From IMG/VR virus record IMGVR_UViG_3300032083_000303, positions 1-46,904 of that record: a DNA stretch of 46,904 nucleotides; one strand, written 5' to 3'. The notes under the pieces were generated by a model. The model had not been told where the DNA came from, did not search any database, and saw only the letters and a list, made by a program, of their open reading frames with translations. Positions 39,657-46,904 of the stretch are shown in pieces; the first letter of the stretch is position 1, and each line of letters begins with the position of its first letter. The position numbers and the translations under genes are program-made. This DNA comes from a virus.

Positions 39657-39684
39657 ATTATATCACATTAACTTAGAATGTCCA
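39657..39684 (-). promoter_or_regulatory. Sigma70-like promoter for the portal operon
   Basis: On the - strand TGGACA (39684-39679) and TATAAT (39662-39657) are 16 bp apart. The promoter straddles the end of terL (stop at 39675-39673) and precedes the 504-residue protein gene; an AGGAAAGGGAA ribosome binding site follows. Confidence 0.6.
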
Positions 39685-41211
39685 ATAGGTTGATTTCTTT
39701 TCTCTAACTGGCTCATCCCAGTTTGGGTCGTCAGGATGTGCAAGGTTCCACGAGTCCCGCATATAATGCACTGCCATAGTTAGCGCATCTACTTGGTCAT
39801 CATGGGCTGAGTTGGGAAAACGTATTAACTCTTCCACTAGATCATCTGCCCATTTCTTAGAGCTAGGTAGCCATAGCCGCCCTGCTTCCATAATGGGTGT
39901 AGCTGAGTAAACTCTGGATACCTTATCGCGATCTGGCAAATACTCTAGAATAGGTAGTCCTGATCTTCGTAAGTCCTGAATCAAAGACTGACCACTGGCT
40001 TTCTTTTCAATCATGCAGACATCAGGTCTGTATTCATTGTACAGTTTCTGTGCAATCCTTCGTAGCTCTGGGTATTCATACCTACCCTTTACATTACCAA
40101 GTAAGATTAAGTTAGAAGCATAGTTCTCTATTCCATCTTCATCTTGGTCATACATGTAGAATATGCCCCATGTCTGAATAACACTGTAGTCAGCCGTATT
40201 GCGTGTAGAAAAAGCTGTATCCATTGTTTGAATAACAAACTCACAAGTAGGAGGCTCATCGTACTCCCATTCTTGTATCCATTTTTTCTTTATCAGACCA
40301 CCTTCTTCTGGAGTAGGGTCTTGCATGTACAGTGCATTCCAGTATCGGCTACCATTACTAGCCTTGATCTCATTCTCATCAATACGTAACAAGTCGTCGG
40401 ACTTCCATTCTGGAAAATAGCTACCACCCTTGGGCATATCTAACAATTCTGCTGCTTCTTCGTCCAGCCATGCAGGAATCCTAATCACTTCCCACGGAAT
40501 AGTCTCGTAGTCACCCATGTCTTCCTGCTGTCGTAGCAGCCATCCACAAAGATCATCATAATGGTAGCGCGTATTGATAATAACAATCGCACCATTGGGC
40601 ATAATACGGGTACGTAGGCCAGCAGGATACCACTCTTTGATATATCTTCTACCAGCATCCGAGTATGAGTCCTCTTCAGACATCACATCGTCCAGAATTG
40701 CTATGTGTGCGCCTCGTCCTGCAATTTGTGACCGCACACCCGCCGCATAATACGTACCATTCTGCGTAGTTTTCCATTTACCCGCTGCACGAACGTCACT
40801 TCGTAGCGCAACTCCTGGAAATATTTTAGAAAACTCTTCAGTATTGACTACATCTCGCACAGATCGCCCGAAATCGCTAGATAGCTGGTCACTATGGGAG
40901 ACAGTCAGTATCTCATGCTCTGGATTCCTACCAATATACCATGCTGGAAACAACTTTGAGCAAATAACAGACTTAGATGAACGTGGAGGAAGGAAGACCA
41001 TTAGTCTTTTTATCTTTCCTTCTTCTAAATCCTTTAGTTTATTGGATATCAACTCAATATGTCTACCCATTTTCCAACCAGACACAAGGCTTGGAGCTAC
41101 AAGACGTACAAATGTAAGGAAATCTGTGTGAGCAGAAAGGTTTACATGCTCAGACAACAAGGTTTGGAGATTAATGTAGGAGTCTAGAAAATTTTCTTCA
41201 ATGTTTAACAT
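39673..41211 (-). CDS. terL: Terminase large subunit
   Basis: 512 residues. The ATPase has a Walker A variant PPRSSKS (75-81), an adenine/coupling region HEILTVSHSDQLSSDFGRSV, and Walker B HIAILDDVMSEED with D174/D175. The RNase H-like nuclease has MDTAFSTRNTADYS (D331), 'VCMIEKKASGQSLIQDL', and the conserved C-terminal AHDDQVDALTMAVHYM. It translocates DNA into the procapsid through the portal and cuts the concatemer. It is the first gene of the leftward virion operon and faces the noncoding junction region. A promoter-like TATAAT is only 7 bp before the ATG. Confidence 0.92.
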   Translation of the reverse strand: MLNIEENFLDSYINLQTLLSEHVNLSAHTDFLTFVRLVAPSLVSGWKMGRHIELISNKLKDLEEGKIKRLMVFLPPRSSKSVICSKLFPAWYIGRNPEHEILTVSHSDQLSSDFGRSVRDVVNTEEFSKIFPGVALRSDVRAAGKWKTTQNGTYYAAGVRSQIAGRGAHIAILDDVMSEEDSYSDAGRRYIKEWYPAGLRTRIMPNGAIVIINTRYHYDDLCGWLLRQQEDMGDYETIPWEVIRIPAWLDEEAAELLDMPKGGSYFPEWKSDDLLRIDENEIKASNGSRYWNALYMQDPTPEEGGLIKKKWIQEWEYDEPPTCEFVIQTMDTAFSTRNTADYSVIQTWGIFYMYDQDEDGIENYASNLILLGNVKGRYEYPELRRIAQKLYNEYRPDVCMIEKKASGQSLIQDLRRSGLPILEYLPDRDKVSRVYSATPIMEAGRLWLPSSKKWADDLVEELIRFPNSAHDDQVDALTMAVHYMRDSWNLAHPDDPNWDEPVREKKSTYWTF

Positions 41212-41374: not shown

Positions 41375-41399
41375 TATATATATACACATGCGCGCGCGT
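41375..41399. other. 25-bp strictly alternating pyrimidine-purine tract
   Basis: The tract begins TATATATATACACATG and ends in four CG steps and T. All 25 bases alternate, a pattern prone to Z-DNA or cruciform unwinding. It is followed by TTTTTGCGCG, which can pair back with the CG part. Confidence 0.7.
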
Positions 41400-41509
41400 T
41401 TTTGCGCGTACCCCTGCGATAAAATCTTTTCAAGATTTACAAAAGCGATCTAACAGATACCTTTTTTGCAGCAATTTTTCGACTTTAGTCTACAAGTGTA
41501 GACTACTTT

Positions 41510-41558
41510 GAATACCCTCTACTACTTAGCTTCCTTTGGAAGCAGTAGAGGGTAATTC
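41510..41558 (+). repeat. Structured repeat R1 (divergent copy)
   Basis: TACCCTCTACT (41513-41523) pairs with AGTAGAGGGTA (41544-41554); ACTTA (41524-41528) is the unpaired bulge; GCTTCC-TTT-GGAAGC (41529-41543) is the inner hairpin. A one-base bulge (A 41555) then GAA with TTC extend the foot. The stems differ from R2-R6 in several positions, always on both sides. Confidence 0.85.
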
Positions 41559-41599
41559 ATAACTAGCTGCTGCCGAAATCGACCCAACCCTTTCCAAAT

Positions 41600-41743
41600 C
41601 ATCCGAAGGATGGGTAAGGTGGCATAATCTGCTACTCTGTAGCAAGTCTAGGCTTTAGCCTAAAGCTTTGAAAACTCTTAGAGTTTTACAGGTTATGCAC
41701 AACAAAGCGTTGCTTTGTCAGACGATGAACCAAGCGTAGCTTG
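41600..41743 (+). other. Chain of six small hairpins, mostly triloops
   Basis: CATCC-GAA-GGATG (41600-41612), TGCTAC-TCT-GTAGCA (41630-41644), TAGGC-TTTA-GCCTA (41649-41662), AAAACTC-TTA-GAGTTTT (41671-41687), ACAAAGC-GTT-GCTTTGT (41702-41718) and CAAGC-GTA-GCTTG (41731-41743) follow each other in 144 bp, five with 3-nt loops. No gene overlaps them. They could be an RNA leader, a small RNA, or protein sites on DNA. Confidence 0.7.
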
Positions 41744-41775
41744 ATAAGCCGTTTGATGAGTGGCAGGATGAAGGC

Positions 41776-41826
41776 TAATTACCAACTACTACTTAGCTTA
41801 CTACGTAAGCAGTAGTTGGTTAATTA
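41776..41826 (+). repeat. Structured repeat R2
   Basis: Foot TAATT with AATTA (one-base T bulge at 41821), middle stem ACCAACTACT (41781-41790) with AGTAGTTGGT (41811-41820), ACTTA bulge (41791-41795), inner GCTTAC-TAC-GTAAGC (41796-41810). It lies 46 bp before the first small gene and after the triloop chain. Confidence 0.92.
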
Positions 41827-41871
41827 AGTACCACAAACCGAGGCCAAGCCTCACAACTAGGAGTACAGACT

Positions 41872-42147
41872 ATGACTAAGACATTCAAAGCTTTTGCAGG
41901 TAAAAACTGGGTAGCCCTGACAAGCCGAGAGGCTTTCAAGGAAGCTGACAAGGCTGGTAAGCCTATCCGAGTTGAGTTTGCCAATGGCTCTTTCAGAGTC
42001 ATTAAGAACGCTGATAAGTTGCCAGAAGGAAAGCCAGTTGGCTTTAGCAAGGCAGCAGCAGATCGGGAAGCTGCGAAGAAAAAGAAAGAAGTGAAGCCAG
42101 AAGTTGTAGCAACTACTACAAAGCTGTTGCAGTGGCCTTCACACTAA
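41872..42147 (+). CDS. Small hypothetical protein (91 aa)
   Basis: Not recognised. A Lys/Ala-rich, soluble protein: 'FKAFAGKNWVALTSREAFKE' then GKPIRVEFANGSFRVIKNAD, ending in a charged coil KAAADREAAKKKKEVK. The middle looks like a small beta unit. AGGAG 10-14 bp before ATG 41872 is a good ribosome binding site. Its stop codon TAA (42145-42147) is part of the 63-nt hairpin element A. It opens the rightward small-gene region; a role in host takeover or regulation is only a guess. Confidence 0.6.
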   Translation: MTKTFKAFAGKNWVALTSREAFKEADKAGKPIRVEFANGSFRVIKNADKLPEGKPVGFSKAAADREAAKKKKEVKPEVVATTTKLLQWPSH

Positions 42148-42208
42148 ATACTTTGTGCAAGGCATAGCTAGTTGCTATGTCTTGTGCTGAGTATTTATAT
42201 CTTTAACA
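42146..42208 (+). repeat. 63-nt hairpin element, copy A
   Basis: Identical to 43144-43206. Outer stem AAATACT (42146-42152) with AGTATTT (42190-42196); a 6+6 internal loop TTGTGC / GTGCTG; inner 10-bp stem AAGGCATAGC with GCTATGTCTT (one G-T) around TAGTT. The first bases are those of the upstream stop codon. Confidence 0.9.
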
Positions 42209-42226
42209 GTCAATCGGAGATTGAAA

Positions 42227-42424
42227 ATGGAAAACGGAATTTTACTTGCCTTTGGCATTGTTGGTGTACTAACCCTAGCCGCTATGGTTTGCTTTAGCAT
42301 TAGTATTACGAGCGAACTAATGAAAAACAAAAACAACACTCGAAGCATCAATCTAAAGATTGAACGGAAAGCTAGAGAGCAACGTCGCCATGCTAGAGCG
42401 ATGAAGCGAATTGCCAACAGCTAA
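42227..42424 (+). CDS. Small single-pass membrane protein (65 aa)
   Basis: Start ATG 42227 (after CGGAGA) is preferred to a TTG at 42221. MENGILLAFGIVGVLTLAAM then VCFSISITS make one transmembrane helix; the rest is strongly basic and cytoplasmic (RKAREQRRHARAMKRIA). It could bind DNA or a membrane complex. The stop TAA (42422-42424) forms the foot of repeat R3. Function unknown. Confidence 0.62.
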   Translation: MENGILLAFGIVGVLTLAAMVCFSISITSELMKNKNNTRSINLKIERKAREQRRHARAMKRIANS

Positions 42425-42472
42425 TTACCAACTACTACTTAGCTTACTACGTAAGCAGTAGTTGGTTAATTA
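42422..42472 (+). repeat. Structured repeat R3
   Basis: Same sequence as R2 and R5 over the whole fold: ACCAACTACT (42427-42436), ACTTA, GCTTAC-TAC-GTAAGC, AGTAGTTGGT (42457-42466), foot TAATT/AATTA. It begins at the stop codon of the membrane protein gene. The identity with R5 extends through the next ribosome binding site and ATG (74 nt in total). Confidence 0.92.
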
Positions 42473-42491
42473 AACAACTTGGAGACTGAAA

Positions 42492-42626
42492 ATGGATCAG
42501 CACGTTATTGATTATCTGAATAACAAAAAAGAATGGGAAGCTTTTCTGGCTAAACTCAACGAGTTTAGTATTTCTGAAGCAAAGCTTGAAAAGCTGGCTG
42601 ACGAAGGATGCAAAACTAATTACTAA
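42492..42626 (+). CDS. 44-residue hypothetical protein
   Basis: Read directly: ATG 42492, stop TAA 42624-42626, ribosome binding site TTGGAG 10 bp upstream. It encodes MDQHVIDYLNNKKEWEAFLA and KLNEFSISEAKLEKLADEGC, ending KTNY; a short helical acidic/basic peptide. The stop lies inside the stem of repeat R4. The leader is identical to that of the 63-residue gene at 42954. Coding is plausible because of the good leader; function unknown. Confidence 0.55.
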   Translation: MDQHVIDYLNNKKEWEAFLAKLNEFSISEAKLEKLADEGCKTNY

Positions 42627-42667
42627 CTACTACTTAGCTTACTACGTAAGCAGTAGTTAGTTAATTA
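42617..42667 (+). repeat. Structured repeat R4
   Basis: ACTAACTACT (42622-42631) with AGTAGTTAGT (42652-42661): compared with R3 a C-G pair has become T-A on both arms. ACTTA bulge (42632-42636), GCTTAC-TAC-GTAAGC (42637-42651), T bulge 42662 and TAATT/AATTA foot are kept. The stop of the 44-residue gene falls in the left arm. Confidence 0.92.
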
Positions 42668-42688
42668 AGTAAACAGAAGGAGGTTGTT

Positions 42689-42886
42689 GTGATTCACTTT
42701 GTGGGATTTCGAGGAGATGAATACATCTCTGCTGTAAAAGTCTTTGGTAAACCTGACTATTATCATAGAGTTTTTGATGGTAGAAGTCGGGAAGATTTCG
42801 ATCCAGAAATCGACACTTTGGTTTTTGCTAGAGGTTCTGAAGATAAATTCACTGAATTTACTTTTGACGATAGCAGAATTTTCTAA
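42689..42886 (+). CDS. Small hypothetical protein (65 aa, GTG start)
   Basis: GTG 42689 follows AGAAGGAGG, one of the best ribosome binding sites in the window. Sequence: IHFVGFRGDEYISAVKVFGK, then DYYHRVFDGRSREDF and an acidic end (FTEFTFDDSRIF). Compact, acidic, aromatic-rich, no membrane part. Stop TAA 42884-42886 is the foot of repeat R5. Not recognised; small acidic phage proteins of this kind can be inhibitors of host enzymes but nothing shows this. Confidence 0.62.
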   Translation: MIHFVGFRGDEYISAVKVFGKPDYYHRVFDGRSREDFDPEIDTLVFARGSEDKFTEFTFDDSRIF

Positions 42887-42934
42887 TTACCAACTACTAC
42901 TTAGCTTACTACGTAAGCAGTAGTTGGTTAATTA
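42884..42934 (+). repeat. Structured repeat R5
   Basis: Identical to R3 in the fold: ACCAACTACT (42889-42898), ACTTA, GCTTAC-TAC-GTAAGC (42904-42918), AGTAGTTGGT (42919-42928), T bulge, AATTA. Begins at the upstream stop codon. Confidence 0.92.
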
Positions 42935-42953
42935 AACAACTTGGAGACTGAAA

Positions 42954-43145
42954 ATGAACATAGTTCAGCAACTAACTAGAGACATCGAATGTGCCACAGA
43001 TTTTCAAGCGTTTGTCAGCATAGCTGGTCCATTCAAGGGCTTTATCGATATTCACTCTCCAAATGGAGAGTTTGTAACTTGTATCCACTTTGAAGAAGTG
43101 GACAGGTTTATACAGCAAAATGCTGGAAATTGGGTAGACCTATAA
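42954..43145 (+). CDS. Small hypothetical protein (63 aa)
   Basis: Not recognised. 'MNIVQQLTRDIECATDFQAF' starts with a helix; a strand-like 'GFIDIHSPNGEFVTCIHFEE' follows, then a helix VDRFIQQNAGNWVDL. The layout suggests a small alpha-beta fold. Leader CAACTTGGAGACTGAAA is the same as that of the 44-residue gene. Stop TAA 43143-43145 overlaps element B. Function unknown. Confidence 0.6.
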   Translation: MNIVQQLTRDIECATDFQAFVSIAGPFKGFIDIHSPNGEFVTCIHFEEVDRFIQQNAGNWVDL

Positions 43146-43206
43146 ATACTTTGTGCAAGGCATAGCTAGTTGCTATGTCTTGTGCTGAGTATTTATATCT
43201 TTAACA
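43144..43206 (+). repeat. 63-nt hairpin element, copy B
   Basis: Identical to copy A (42146-42208). Here the outer stem is one pair longer because the flanking A (43142) matches T (43196). It again begins at a stop codon and ends just before an AAGGAAAA ribosome binding site. Confidence 0.9.
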
Positions 43207-43219
43207 AAAGGAAAAGCTA

Positions 43220-43387
43220 ATGTATAATTCCAGACTTCCAAAGTGTGAACAGTGTGGTGATGCTGCACATGTAGAAGATAGTGGCTTGCTATTGTGTGCA
43301 CCATGCTATATGAAAGATGCGAAGCGATCAGCCAGAACGAAGTCTGAGTACGTAGCTTCCATCGTAATTGAAACAAGGAAAAGCTAA
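43220..43387 (+). CDS. 55-residue zinc-ribbon protein
   Basis: Read directly: ATG 43220, stop TAA 43385-43387 overlapping the next ATG. MYNSRLPKCEQCGDAAHVED then LLLCAPCYMKDAKRSA: two C-x-x-C pairs 16 residues apart form a zinc ribbon, followed by a basic helix. Probably binds nucleic acid or a host RNA polymerase part, as many small phage zinc proteins do, but not shown. The leader AAGGAAAAGCT is shared with the next gene. Confidence 0.6.
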   Translation: MYNSRLPKCEQCGDAAHVEDSGLLLCAPCYMKDAKRSARTKSEYVASIVIETRKS

Positions 43388-44004
43388 TGTATAACCGCGA
43401 CAATAAAATGATTAGGAAGTTTGCCGATCTTGGCACAACCCCAACCTCTGATACAGCCCTATTTGTTATTGCAAGCATACGGACTTTTACTTGGCTGTTG
43501 CCAGATATGATGGACAACTATCGTGACAAAGGTATGAAATCATTTAATAATTTAATGCCTAAACAAAAGGAAGGTATTAAATATGTAATAAAAAATAAAG
43601 AATGGCTCTACAATTTGGTGCAGAGTTACAAGGCTGGAGATATTTATCCAGAAGAGTTGCTGCTATCTTTGCAGCGTATCCCTTGCATTGGCTTAGTAAA
43701 GGCAGGATTTATTATGCAACTCACTACTGGTGAGGCAGGATGCCTTGACTGCCACAATCTAAAGATGTATGGTGTAAATGAGAACACATTCAAAATGAAT
43801 GGAGAATTTTCTATTCCTAACTTTAACAAAGCACGAAAGTATTTAGCATTGTGTAACGAAATTGGTGGTAGTGAATTGTTGTGGAATAACTGGTGCAATT
43901 TAGTTGCGGATAAGTATCCGAAGCACTTTAAATCTGGTGATGATGTATCTTGGTTGCATAGCAATGCTATCATGGGAATCCAACAGACAATCGAAAGGGG
44001 ATAA
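43387..44004 (+). CDS. HhH-type DNA glycosylase/endonuclease III-like protein
   Basis: 205 residues. A helix-hairpin-helix near residues 94-108 (LSLQRIPCIGLVKAGFIM) is followed by GCLDCHNLKMYG, where D121 matches the catalytic Asp of the HhH-GPD pattern (LPGVGRKTA...VDTHV.R). The usual Lys of bifunctional enzymes is displaced (K105). No iron-sulphur cysteine set is seen at the end. It may excise damaged or modified bases, or bind DNA only. ATG overlaps the upstream stop. A full catalytic role is uncertain. Confidence 0.55.
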   Translation: MYNRDNKMIRKFADLGTTPTSDTALFVIASIRTFTWLLPDMMDNYRDKGMKSFNNLMPKQKEGIKYVIKNKEWLYNLVQSYKAGDIYPEELLLSLQRIPCIGLVKAGFIMQLTTGEAGCLDCHNLKMYGVNENTFKMNGEFSIPNFNKARKYLALCNEIGGSELLWNNWCNLVADKYPKHFKSGDDVSWLHSNAIMGIQQTIERG

Positions 44005-44007
44005 GTT

Positions 44008-44211
44008 ATGTGGACATACAACATTCAAGGTTATATAAAGCAAGCGAGTGGTTTTTATAAACACTTTGCTGTAACTTGTTGTTATGACGTTGAGGGTGTT
44101 AATGGCTCAAAAGCAACTATGGAAGTAATTGTGGAAAGTTATGAAAAGGCAGTGCAGTTTGTACTGTCTCACCAAGAATCTGCTAATCACGGAGTGATCT
44201 ACGATGAGTGA
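44008..44211 (+). CDS. Small hypothetical protein (67 aa)
   Basis: Not recognised. Beta-rich start 'MWTYNIQGYIKQASGFYKHF', AVTCCYDVEG, then a helix EKAVQFVLSHQESA. The pattern (strand, strand, helix) is a small alpha-beta protein. AAGGGG before ATG is a fair ribosome binding site. The stop overlaps the next start by 8 bp. Function unknown. Confidence 0.6.
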   Translation: MWTYNIQGYIKQASGFYKHFAVTCCYDVEGVNGSKATMEVIVESYEKAVQFVLSHQESANHGVIYDE

Positions 44212-44479
44212 CTACTACTGGGAAATTACCTATGGAAACAAAGACATAGGTCTTGATAATGACGTAGGAACAACTAGCATGTCGTCGCGAGATTGGAAGG
44301 AAAGGGCAAACAACCCTAACGAATTTAAGATGTATGATGACGATGGGATTTTATATTACAAAGGAAATATCTATGGTGCCTACTATGGCTTTGAACCACT
44401 AGATGACTTTGGTATGCCTAATGCAGGATGTGTAGACATAAAATATAAATCTAACAACGGTGAGTGGGAATCTCTATGA
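44204..44479 (+). CDS. Small hypothetical protein (91 aa)
   Basis: Not recognised. Acidic, Tyr/Gly-rich: 'DYYWEITYGNKDIGLDNDVG', YDDDGILYYKGNIYGAYYG, EPLDDFGMPNAGCVDIKY. 'D..G.LYYKG..YG' is reminiscent of small phage proteins linked to nucleotide or stress modules but no name applies. Its stop overlaps the next ATG (ATGA), so they are coupled. Confidence 0.6.
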   Translation: MSDYYWEITYGNKDIGLDNDVGTTSMSSRDWKERANNPNEFKMYDDDGILYYKGNIYGAYYGFEPLDDFGMPNAGCVDIKYKSNNGEWESL

Positions 44480-44649
44480 CAAACGAACCTTGTAAAGTTT
44501 GTAAAGGCACGATACATCAAATGGAATATATCTATTCTATAGATAGGATTGATGTATACTACTGTGATGCTTGTAAAACTGAAGCCAGTGCAAAGCCTGT
44601 GGAGTATGTTACTCCAGAGGTGGCGCTTGGCGAACTCTATGGAGAATAG
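44476..44649 (+). CDS. Small zinc-binding protein (57 aa)
   Basis: Start ATG 44476 overlaps the upstream stop and is preferred to a GTG at 44464. MTNEPCKVCKGTIHQMEYIY ... DVYYCDACKTEAS shows two C-x-x-C pairs 25 residues apart, a zinc ribbon. The rest is acidic and helical. It could bind DNA, RNA or a host protein. Second of two small zinc-ribbon genes in this region. Confidence 0.62.
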   Translation: MTNEPCKVCKGTIHQMEYIYSIDRIDVYYCDACKTEASAKPVEYVTPEVALGELYGE

Positions 44650-44651
44650 TT

Positions 44652-44861
44652 ATGATGATTTTGCACTATAAAAGTAAGAAAGAACTCAAAGAAAATGTAG
44701 GTAAGCCTTTGATGTATGAGGAAACTTCCATGTTTGGACCTGAGTATCAGAGTGATGGGACATTCTGTGGAAGTAATCGACCATCAATTACTGGTATCAA
44801 AGGCCGAGAGTTCTTCGCAGAAGTAACCATGAAAGATAATCTAATTGCAAAGGTGATGTAA
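44652..44861 (+). CDS. Conserved small phage protein (SKKELK...ETSMFG)
   Basis: 69 residues: ILHYKSKKELKENVGKPLMY, EETSMFGPEYQSDGTFCGSN, FFAEVTMKDNLIAKV. The order 'K..SKKELK..VGK.L.Y.ETSMFG.EY...G......RP.ITG....FFA.V.M....I..V' is a recurring phage family of unknown role. Start 44652 or 44655 (two ATGs). Stop overlaps next ATG (TAATG). Confidence 0.65.
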   Translation: MMILHYKSKKELKENVGKPLMYEETSMFGPEYQSDGTFCGSNRPSITGIKGREFFAEVTMKDNLIAKVM

Positions 44862-45196
44862 TGAAAATACTAACAAAACAAAACGAAAAAGACATAGGCA
44901 AAAAAGTAATTAAATTCTTTACGCCTTGGTCAAACTGGTCTTGGTATGTCACCGAAGGTGAGAAGACTAAGGATGGTGATTGGTTATTCTTTGGCTTTGT
45001 AGAGGGATTTGAAAAGGAATGGGGTAGCTTCATGCTATCAGACTTGACCAGTGTCACTGGTCCTATGGGCCTAAAGATTGAGAGAGACAAGTGGTATAGT
45101 GAGCCTGTTGATAAATTCAAAGAGGATGTATTTGTAAAAAAACTAGATGAAGCAGTTGAGGATTTAAGAGTTACTTGGAGTGAAGATAAGAAATGA
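44861..45196 (+). CDS. DUF2958-like protein
   Basis: 111 residues. KVIKFFTPWSNWSWYVTEGE, WLFFGFVEGFEKEWGSFML, GPMGLKIERDKWYSEP match the DUF2958 pattern (W.WY..E.......FG.V.G.E.E.G.F.L.EL......GL.IERD). DUF2958 proteins are found on plasmids and phages; function unknown. Acidic C-terminal helix. Coupled with both neighbours by overlaps. Confidence 0.6.
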   Translation: MKILTKQNEKDIGKKVIKFFTPWSNWSWYVTEGEKTKDGDWLFFGFVEGFEKEWGSFMLSDLTSVTGPMGLKIERDKWYSEPVDKFKEDVFVKKLDEAVEDLRVTWSEDKK

Positions 45197-45675
45197 ATAT
45201 ATTTATGCTTGATAAAAATCCTGCTGTGGCGGCTCAGTATCATTGCGACAAGCATGTAGTCAAAATGATATTGGAAACAGGTCAGTTGCTATCAACTGCT
45301 TGGCGCGTCACAGCAGGAGATGAGTACCCAGATGAGCGTGGCATGTACAAAGCAACGCATAAGAACCACCCATCTAATGTCTGGGCCAGACAATCTAACA
45401 ACAACTATCACTGGTTGTATGAATTGTTTTTAGAACTTGGAAAGGAGTATAAGCATAGATATAACAAAGAGCATTTAACTATAAAGAAGTTAAGAGGTCC
45501 GCTTGATATGCCGCCATTCGGTATTGAGCAGAAGTTTATGACTAAAATGCCACAGTGTATGCCCGACGATGCAAAGCGCGCCGATCCTGTTGATGGCTAT
45601 CGTAATTATTATAAGCTTTACAAGTCACATATTTTGAAGTACACTAATAGACCTGTTCCCGAATGGCTAAAATAA
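45193..45675 (+). CDS. Conserved phage protein with CDKHVVKM motif
   Basis: 160 residues. 'AAQYHCDKHVVKMILETGQL', LSTAWRV, ATHKNHPSNVWARQSNNNYH then WLYELFLELGKEYKHRY and the end YRNYYKLYKSHILKYTNRPV are characteristic of a widespread phage family. It has been labelled as pyrimidine-dimer glycosylase-like in some genomes, but I do not see proof of that activity. Conserved H and K residues around CDKHVVK may be functional. ATG overlaps the upstream stop. Confidence 0.65.
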   Translation: MNIFMLDKNPAVAAQYHCDKHVVKMILETGQLLSTAWRVTAGDEYPDERGMYKATHKNHPSNVWARQSNNNYHWLYELFLELGKEYKHRYNKEHLTIKKLRGPLDMPPFGIEQKFMTKMPQCMPDDAKRADPVDGYRNYYKLYKSHILKYTNRPVPEWLK

Positions 45676-45706
45676 AATTAATATGAAACTGAAAAAGGAA
45701 AAACAA

Positions 45707-45946
45707 ATGTCTAAGACTGTGAAACTTACTGCTCGTGTCAACGCCAAGTCACCCAAGTATGGCTATGGTTTTCATTCAATTAATAATGGGTGGCGTGTGG
45801 ATGTCCCTTACCATAGCATTACGGTGTTTGGTAAGTCATCTGTGAAGCCTACCGTTCGATCAAAGCATAGCGGTCTTCGCTGGATTGTGGAGAACAATCG
45901 CTCCCGCCTTGTTCGTGTGTCTCACAATGTAGCACAAGGAAACTAA
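45707..45946 (+). CDS. Small basic hypothetical protein (79 aa)
   Basis: Start ATG 45707 follows AAAAAGGAAAAACAA; an in-frame ATG at 45683 lacks a ribosome binding site. 'MSKTVKLTARVNAKSPKYGY' then GFHSINNGWRVDVPYHSITV and VKPTVRSKHSGLRWIVENNR. Basic, beta-rich; may bind nucleic acid. It is the last gene before the tRNA-Leu. Not recognised. Confidence 0.6.
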   Translation: MSKTVKLTARVNAKSPKYGYGFHSINNGWRVDVPYHSITVFGKSSVKPTVRSKHSGLRWIVENNRSRLVRVSHNVAQGN

Positions 45947-45955
45947 TATAAACAA

Positions 45956-46042
45956 GTGAGCGTGGTGAAATTGGTAAACACAACAGACTTAAAATCTGTC
46001 GCCAGCTATGGCTTGCGGGTTCAAGTCCCGCCGCTCACACCA
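45956..46042 (+). tRNA. tRNA-Leu (anticodon UAA)
   Basis: 87 nt including an encoded CCA (46040-46042). Acceptor GTGAGCG pairs with CGCTCAC; the anticodon stem ACAGA/TCTGT holds loop CTTAAAA with TAA; a long variable arm CGCCAGCTATGGCTT marks a class II tRNA; T arm GCGGGTTCAAGTCCCGC. It reads UUA (and UUG), an AT-rich Leu codon. Confidence 0.95.
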
Positions 46043-46055
46043 AAGGAGTATCTTA

Positions 46056-46199
46056 ATGGCTAAGAATAAAACAAATATAGTTATAGAACCGACCAAGAAA
46101 AAGACAAGTATTGGTGGTAATCATGCGATGCTATCAACTAAAACTATGAACAAGAATAAACGTGCCAGCTACAAAAAATATCGTGGGCAAGGCCGATGA
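46056..46199 (+). CDS. 47-residue basic protein
   Basis: Start ATG 46056 follows AAAGGAG (46043-46049), which begins right after the tRNA CCA. 'MAKNKTNIVIEPTKKKTSIG' then GNHAMLSTKTMNKNKRASYK and KYRGQGR; the 'mNKnKR.s.KkYRGQG' end is a recurring small phage protein of unknown role. The stop overlaps the next start (ATGA). A longer frame from 46008 would read through the tRNA and is rejected. Confidence 0.62.
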   Translation: MAKNKTNIVIEPTKKKTSIGGNHAMLSTKTMNKNKRASYKKYRGQGR

Positions 46200-46303
46200 T
46201 AGATATCCTAACCCTAATTGTAGAGGGTGCTGTATTGTTGGGCGTGTGGCTCAACACTATTATCAACTTAATTTTATACCGTAAAAGGAAAAATCGTGGC
46301 TGA
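46196..46303 (+). CDS. 35-residue single-helix membrane protein
   Basis: Read directly: ATG 46196, stop TGA 46301-46303. MIDILTLIVEGAVLLGVWLN and TIINLILYRKRKNRG: one hydrophobic helix followed by a positively charged end. Overlaps the preceding stop (ATGA) and the next GTG start by 8 bp. Could be a small membrane peptide such as an antiholin; no proof. Confidence 0.5.
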   Translation: MIDILTLIVEGAVLLGVWLNTIINLILYRKRKNRG

Positions 46304-46532
46304 CTTTAAAGGATGGGTCTATCTTGAGGATGAAATGCCTCGCATAGGATCAGGCGCACGGCTGGTAACAGCCAAGGTAGGTTGGAAGTGGGTCAGAGCA
46401 AAGTCTGTAACGTACCCTGTACCACAAACCTATACACGTATTCATTTATCTAAATGGAAAAATGTTTTACGCCGCACTGAAAAGCGTGGCATACCTTGGG
46501 GTACAACATGGGAGACAGTAAATGGAAAATGA
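46296..46532 (+). CDS. Small basic hypothetical protein (78 aa, GTG start)
   Basis: GTG 46296 follows AAAAGGAAAAATC. 'ADFKGWVYLEDEMPRIGSGA' then RLVTAKVGWKWVRAKSVTYP and WKNVLRRTEKRGIPW: a basic, Trp-rich protein with a beta-like first half. Its end overlaps the next gene by 11 bp. Similar short phage proteins exist but I cannot name a family. Confidence 0.58.
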   Translation: MADFKGWVYLEDEMPRIGSGARLVTAKVGWKWVRAKSVTYPVPQTYTRIHLSKWKNVLRRTEKRGIPWGTTWETVNGK

Positions 46533-46764
46533 TACATGGGAAAGAAGAAGTAAAGATATAGATTCTTTTTATCAATTATTTGGTGCTGAAATAGAATATA
46601 ATATGGAGACAGAGAATAAAAATCCTTTGGTTGTAGTGTATGGTGCGCTTGCTGCTGCTGTTGATGCGGCTTTTCTACATGCTCCATCAAACACTGACGC
46701 CATGTACGTAATCCACAATCTGTTAAATAAAAAGCTAACAGACTTGCTAGATTACAACGAGTAG
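46522..46764 (+). CDS. Small acidic hypothetical protein (80 aa)
   Basis: Not recognised. Helical, acidic: ENDTWERRSKDIDSFYQLFG, then NPLVVVYGALAAAVDAAFLH (a hydrophobic helix, too polar at the edges to be sure of membrane insertion), and MYVIHNLLNKKLTDLL. It ends 6 bp before the tRNA-Arg. It may be a small oligomer. Confidence 0.58.
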   Translation: MENDTWERRSKDIDSFYQLFGAEIEYNMETENKNPLVVVYGALAAAVDAAFLHAPSNTDAMYVIHNLLNKKLTDLLDYNE

Positions 46765-46770
46765 TGTATA

Positions 46771-46847
46771 CTCCACATAGCTCAACTGGATAGAGCGACA
46801 GCCTTCTAAGCTGTAGGTTGTAGGTTCGAGTCCTACTGTGGAGGCCA
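46771..46847 (+). tRNA. tRNA-Arg (anticodon UCU)
   Basis: 77 nt with an encoded CCA (46845-46847). Acceptor CTCCACA pairs with TGTGGAG; D arm GCTCAACTGGATAGAGC; anticodon stem ACAGC/GCTGT with loop CTTCTAA, anticodon TCT; T arm GTAGGTTCGAGTCCTAC. It reads AGA/AGG. Confidence 0.95.
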
Positions 46848-46850
46848 ACT

Positions 46851-46901
46851 TTATTACTAACTACTACTTAGCTTACTACGTAAGCAGTAGTTAGTTAATA
46901 A
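46851..46901 (+). repeat. Structured repeat R6 (at window end)
   Basis: ACTAACTACT (46856-46865) with AGTAGTTAGT (46886-46895), ACTTA bulge, GCTTAC-TAC-GTAAGC (46871-46885). The foot is TTATT with AATAA instead of TAATT with AATTA: both sides changed together. It starts 4 bp after the tRNA-Arg CCA, so it can also follow an RNA gene. Confidence 0.9.
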
Positions 46902-46904
46902 CTA

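Follow-up and report, generated by a model that had tools for sequence, protein, structure and literature searches.

Hairpins and genes at the locus

The window analysed here is a 46.9-kb stretch of DNA from a tailed phage (IMG/VR virus record IMGVR_UViG_3300032083_000303, positions 1 to 46,904), and the subject of this study is a family of hairpins that occurs in it six times, as R1 to R6, each 53 nt long and all on the plus strand. From 41.2 kb on, small genes form a rightward block next to the leftward structural block (terminase at 39673-41211, portal, capsid). The closest named relatives of the terminase are those of the pelagiphages HTVC023P and HTVC027P (~40% identity), and the phage was placed in a clade of uncultivated phages with terminases 72-99% identical. 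The contigs compared are uncultivated and frequently fragments, and the E-values of the model searches are rough.

A search of the window with the core pattern returned six forward matches and none for the reversed-pattern control, so that all six copies listed in a preliminary description of this DNA were recovered at their positions. Each consists of a foot and middle helix of ~15 bp, in most cases with a single additional base on the 3′ arm, and, at the apex, an inner stem of 6 bp with a loop of 3 nt; between the two helices five bases, ACTTA, are unpaired, on the 5′ arm alone. Folding of R3 as RNA gave the fold described earlier, at -20.6 kcal/mol and z = -5.4, which was equalled by 0 of 200 shuffles; folded as DNA, R3 is stable too (-13.3, z = -6.2). 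A slipped pairing of CTT in the ACTTA bulge with AAG is possible, at the cost of a G-C pair, and the predicted minimum retains the bulge.

The hairpins had been placed at gene ends, which is exact for R3 to R5. The foot of R3 (42421-42473) holds the stop codon of the open reading frame (ORF) 42221-42424, R4 (42616-42668) lies 3′ of a 44-aa ORF and 5′ of ORF 42689-42886, and the foot of R5 (42883-42935) holds the stop codon of the latter. The other three stand differently: R1 (41508-41560, ACTTA bulge at 41524-41528) is located in the non-coding leader preceding the rightward gene block, R2 (41775-41827) closes a non-coding segment and separates it from the gene at 41872-42147, and R6 (46850-46902) follows immediately after a tRNA-Arg(TCT) gene (46771-46847, plus strand).

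Covariation in relatives of R1 to R6

Relatives of R1 to R6, referred to as class I, were collected from IMG/VR by pattern scans with the middle helix left free. At least seven of the eight flanking pairs were formed in 42 distinct elements, and the scan splits cleanly, as matches outside these elements mostly form four pairs or fewer. The middle helices vary widely (CTACT/AGTAG, CTCTCT/AGAGAG, ATACT/AGTAT, TTAAT/ATTAA), and the differences on both arms, first seen between the six copies of the window, are real and extend to the 42 elements.

In 36 aligned elements with a 6-bp inner stem and a 3-nt loop, 16 of the 21 pairs were altered on both sides. Cells with two-sided changes numbered 116 versus 35.8 in shuffles, and the covariation score was 0.416 versus 0.118 in shuffled alignments and 0.07-0.11 in controls with the partner slid. 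Because the elements share descent and records, these counts do not represent independent events; the slid controls preserve the relatedness yet fail to reproduce the signal. Covariation of paired positions in a larger alignment had been set beforehand as the test of the folded element, and this is what was found.

The bulge, which the preliminary description regarded as constant, is nearly fixed amid the variable arms, though not absolutely so: with its length and sequence left free, class I gave ACTTA in 116 of 120 matches, TCTTA in two and ACTTAA in one, the remaining one being a chance match. The constancy of GCTT/AAGC in the inner stem is partly imposed by the scan patterns. The single scan with a free inner stem revealed no alternative class I inner stem, only the sister form ACTACT-ACTT-ACTTC. 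Further sister hairpins with a 5′ bulge of 3-4 nt (ACTACT-ACTT-ACTTC..GAAGT-AGTAGT and forms with a TTAC loop) were seen in contigs L053, L073, L082, L084 and L099 and at L245:1730-2139, which suggests additional classes. Separately, at L001:7048 and in seven similar contigs a class I variant stands after a 543-aa ORF and is followed by TTGACA. No other class I copy has a promoter-like box immediately after it, and a promoter reading drawn from these copies is not general.

A second class of hairpins and its distribution

Class II came to light through a model search and through a blind scan that accepted any perfect hairpin with a bulge on one side, which together showed that the same genomes hold hairpins of more than one kind. 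In the blind scan of the window and of records G001, G005 and G006 the bulge was 5′ on the coding strand in nearly every match, and shuffled sequence gave 0 or 1 match. The bulge of class II is GTAA or GTGA (GTRA) and the apex is constant, GTTC-TTAC-GAAC; a variant form carries GTAGA with GTATC-TTAC-GATAC. A scan that allowed any bulge length from 0 to 7 (N0-7) found 68 copies, and in all 68 the bulge is exactly four bases long and reads GTAA or GTGA. In an alternative drawing, preferred by the folding program, GT/AC pairs are formed together with a tandem RA/GA mismatch; two variants, in which the bulge is GG.., speak for the bulged form instead.

A pairing-blind scan for GTRAGTTCTTACGAAC returned at least 120 stretches. 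Among 113 distinct class II-like sequences, 90 had at least seven of nine Watson-Crick outer pairs, five had six and 18 had five or fewer; distinct class II copies thus number at least 90. In 42 sequences 240 two-sided cells were counted, with a covariation score of 0.762 versus 0.164 shuffled. Since these sequences were chosen by the nine inner pairs, the five outermost pairs are unbiased, and they covary too. The selection on a folded nucleic acid proposed for the six copies of the window is thus strongly supported by the covariation in both classes. Beside the class II bulge, 6-8 bp vary from copy to copy within one genome in an address-like manner.

Class II is not present in the window itself and is far more widespread than class I. 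Its carriers include members of the window clade, a sister clade (~47% protein identity) and contigs without clear kin. A phage of the HMO-2011 type (L334), whose terminase stands at 73% to that of CRP-1, and phages of the HTVC115P type (66%; L354 and others) are carriers as well. Examples are located at L163:6331, L174:1725, L012:739, L334:8911-11954 and L343:1103, with ~90 distinct copies elsewhere. A gene with an HhH-like motif (G.vKAGF...GC.D.HN) and without a Pfam or PHROG match was observed in the window (43387-44004), at L343:1125-1763 and in L301; in other phage clades it adjoins class II hairpins, and a hairpin-bounded cassette of ~1.4 kb recurs there.

Searches outside these contigs were negative. 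Rfam release 15 gave only chance-level matches to the hairpins at gathering and relaxed thresholds, the two tRNAs being the only matches above the gathering threshold, in line with the earlier statement that no catalogued element family is matched. Chance-level matches only were likewise obtained by blastn of one class I element and of concatenated class II elements against 50,697 phage records. No such hairpins were present in the examined parts of the nearest isolates HTVC023P, HMO-2011, CRP-1 and HTVC115P, and a scan of 84,980 prokaryote genomes with two hairpin patterns gave 0 matches. The hairpin family apparently has not been described previously.

Placement and helix length

Both classes are intergenic and in sense orientation; only four copies among 66 of class I and 129 of class II fall within an ORF of at least 120 aa. 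A Shine-Dalgarno sequence and a start codon were found within ~55 nt of the 3′ foot in 39 of the 66 class I and 90 of the 129 class II copies, the median distance from the 3′ foot to the start codon being 20-21 nt in both classes, and the foot often contains the stop codon of the upstream gene (CTAATTA). No promoter fits between hairpin and next gene because the gap is too short. Promoter and terminator scans detected no terminator-like site at the hairpins, which agrees with the absence of a T run remarked on earlier, nor a promoter that the gene downstream could plausibly use. The only strong promoter-like match, at 43201-43228, does not precede a gene but shares bases with a ribosome site and start codon. 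The gene spacing suggests that genes separated by hairpins are co-transcribed.

The total number of pairs, outside the bulge plus inner stem, has a median of 21 in class I elements with a 6-bp inner stem and of 20.5 in those with a 5-bp inner stem (n = 4), and of 21 in class II elements with 4-bp and with 5-bp inner stems. A shorter inner stem is therefore accompanied by a longer outer helix, and the total stays constant. Two A-form turns (~21 bp) make a helix of the length that suits RNase III well as a substrate. A ruler of about two turns is what a double-strand RNase would measure.

Non-coding segment, D5 hairpins and cassette order

R1 and R2 bracket a gene-free segment of 214 nt (41561-41774, plus strand), which is a candidate structured non-coding RNA. 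It is kept in L009, L021, L022 and L024, where several short stems show paired changes, and it folds moderately better than shuffles (z = -2.64); by these features it is a candidate phage small RNA. Upstream of R1, an alternating GCGCGCGCG tract (41380-41410) occupies part of the non-coding stretch that separates the two divergent gene blocks. A gene of the pyrimidine dimer DNA glycosylase family (PF03013) is located at 45193-45675 within the small-gene block.

A longer covarying hairpin distinct from R, termed D5, also forms cassette boundaries. Its two copies on the plus strand, 42145-42208 and 43143-43206, are a 64-nt exact repeat. Variants occur in L009, L021, L022 and L024, with covariation of the inner stem (GGCATAGC/GCTATGTC, AGTATAGC/GGCTATACT, GGTATAGC/GCTATATC). 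With cassettes named after the first residues of each small protein, the order in the window is [R2] TKT-D5-ENG [R3] DQH [R4] IHF [R5] NIV-D5. L009 and L030 have NIV-D5-ENG and then TKT-D5, so that TKT and NIV are swapped relative to the window, and L021, L022 and L024 show other cassette orders and contents. The breakpoints fall at R hairpins or D5. Homologous recombination within these repeats of ~40-64 bp is enough to explain the shuffling. A tyrosine recombinase was not found in the window clade, the HMO-type record G021 alone matching PF00589; a Y1 (TnpA-REP) transposase was absent from all 13 records and a phage-encoded RNase III from the window clade. No convincing protein family is common to all carrier clades, the HhH-like gene being present in some clades only.

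Comparison with known systems

Operon punctuation by RNA hairpins has its classic case in phage T7. The T7 RNase III sites R0.3, R0.5, R1, R1.1 and R1.3 were folded here at what we take to be their positions, the T7 record carrying no annotation of them. They are interrupted hairpins of ~20 bp that lie between early genes on a polycistronic transcript, each a short way 5′ of the ribosome site that follows, and similar members are repeated within one genome. The marine hairpins share the intergenic position on the same strand without a promoter in the gap, and the length of about two helical turns (median total 20.5-21 bp). They lack the T7-type internal loop and sequence: in the T7 sites the helix is interrupted near the base by a two-sided internal loop and G-U pairs are frequent, whereas the marine hairpins have a one-sided 5′ bulge near the apex, almost no G-U and a different fixed sequence. 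Because of this loop and the abundant G-U in the T7 sites, the marine hairpins are outside the T7 R-site sequence family.

The preliminary description had drawn a parallel to the promoter early stem-loops (PeSLs) of T4-type phages, which the cited passage of PMC4503421 (referring to Arbiol 2010 and Comeau 2014) presents as composite promoter-terminator motifs mediating modular shuffling. Measured against that passage, the parallel holds in part. Repeated intergenic stem-loops edge small exchangeable gene modules in both cases, and cassette order differs between relatives with breakpoints at the hairpins. The two elements that define a PeSL there are missing here: no plausible early promoter lies in the gaps, whose median is ~20 nt, and a terminator stem-loop is lacking at R1 to R6, which have no T-run and were negative in the scan. 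Unlike the PeSLs of that account, moreover, the marine hairpins have a fixed asymmetric bulge. Processing sites of the RNase III type, which had not been considered before, are a better fit to the context of the hairpins than the PeSL analogy.

Integron attC sites also consist of a folded strand with extrahelical bases and variable paired arms, at the cassette end in gene orientation. However, attC conserves the base of the stem and the marine hairpins conserve the apex, and no integrase is present in the window clade. REP/BIME elements with RAYT are likewise repeated intergenic hairpins; the missing Y1 transposase and the lack of matches in the 84,980 prokaryote genomes scanned with two patterns set the marine hairpins apart. 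An intrinsic terminator, with a GC stem and U-run, is not what they resemble.

Interpretation

From the fold, the selection on pairing, the length rule and the placement we infer, at about an even chance, that R1 to R6 represent class I of a family of apically bulged hairpins of ~21 bp which mark off genes within the rightward, non-structural operons of marine tailed phages and function at the level of the transcript, as processing or stabilising signals. A double-strand RNase (host RNase III, as at the T7 R-sites) or a bulge-reading protein would cut or cap the polycistronic RNA at the hairpin. Cutting would separate neighbouring messages and free the tRNA and the non-coding RNA, and a hairpin remaining on the transcript would resist 3′ exonucleases. 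As the same hairpin ends each module, modules could be swapped by recombination within the repeats and would still function. This interpretation is supported by R6 and its homologues, which follow tRNA-Arg, and by R1 and R2, which flank a conserved non-coding segment.

Several observations weigh against it. The T7 sites, with their two-sided internal loop, do not have the 5′ bulge of these hairpins. To our knowledge host RNase III needs no fixed bulge sequence, and the fixed apex therefore points to a more specific reader; no such reader of bulge or apex was found among the candidates checked (RNase III, Y1 transposase, tyrosine recombinase, shared protein families). In addition, the seven pairs next to the bulge contain no G-U pair among ~714; for class II alone the figures are 0 G-U, 4 A-C and 27 other mismatches among 553. 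Phage tRNAs of the same contigs hold 9 of 277 G-U (Fisher p ~1e-5, from 13 tRNAs only) and the T7 R-site regions 22 of 110, and in RNA elements G-U is normally better tolerated than A-C. The scarcity may reflect pairing in DNA, a reader that depends on the regularity of the helix, or selection made efficient by very large population size.

A specific reader would also be expected if the hairpins were operators, at which a phage or host protein binds bulge and apex and represses or coordinates translation of the next gene, as coat protein does on the MS2 hairpin and IRP on the iron-responsive element. The fixed bulge and apex amid freely covarying stems and the position ~20 nt before the next start codon suit this function, and the many copies per genome would make a regulon. 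We regard it as unlikely, since translation is not always at stake (R1 stands before a non-coding segment and R6 after a tRNA), no suitable protein family is common to all carrier clades, and an apex-binding protein does not need the length rule. The near absence of G-U and the stable DNA fold of R3 suit sites acting at the DNA level, where a folded single strand or cruciform would be a recombination substrate that shuffles cassettes, like attC or PeSLs; this agrees with the breakpoints at R and D5 where TKT and NIV trade places in L009/L030 compared with the window, and with the other cassette orders and contents of L021, L022 and L024. Yet ordinary homologous recombination over the repeats would do, the recombinase and transposase searches were negative, the conserved part is the apex and not the stem base as in attC, and the strict sense orientation, the tight spacing to the ribosome site and the tRNA neighbour favour RNA, so that such sites appear distinctly improbable. 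We think it more doubtful still that a hairpin-delimited gene-cassette system of lytic marine phages exists, a proposal suggested by the near absence of G-U pairs, in which folded DNA would be read by a recombination or replication factor that moves small cassettes among several phage families, while the same hairpins would separate messages in the transcript.

The hairpins could also be passive mRNA stabilisers, with a stem that does no more than stop 3′ exonucleases and is neither specifically cleaved nor read, as E. coli REP hairpins between genes are known to be stabilisers. Long, nearly perfect stems between genes of a polycistronic block are compatible with this role, but it needs neither invariant bulge nor fixed length nor fixed apex, and the RAYT transposase was not found; little probability is given to it. 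Transcription terminators or attenuators, which are also stem-loops between genes, can practically be dismissed, because the U-tract is missing, the scan detected none at R1 to R6, and termination would silence downstream genes that have no promoter of their own.

An apparently uncatalogued, sequence-marked and length-ruled family, which occurs across several marine phage clades, would here represent the punctuation of operons by RNA hairpins. Among its carriers are relatives of SAR116, Roseobacter and SAR11 phages. Covariation of this strength suffices for building new RNA-family models at once, and with the family it can be tested directly whether the shuffling of genes is driven by modules that end in hairpins. 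If the hairpins are processing signals, transcript units would become predictable in uncultivated phages, and some reader of a 5′ ACUUA or GURA bulge would be indicated.

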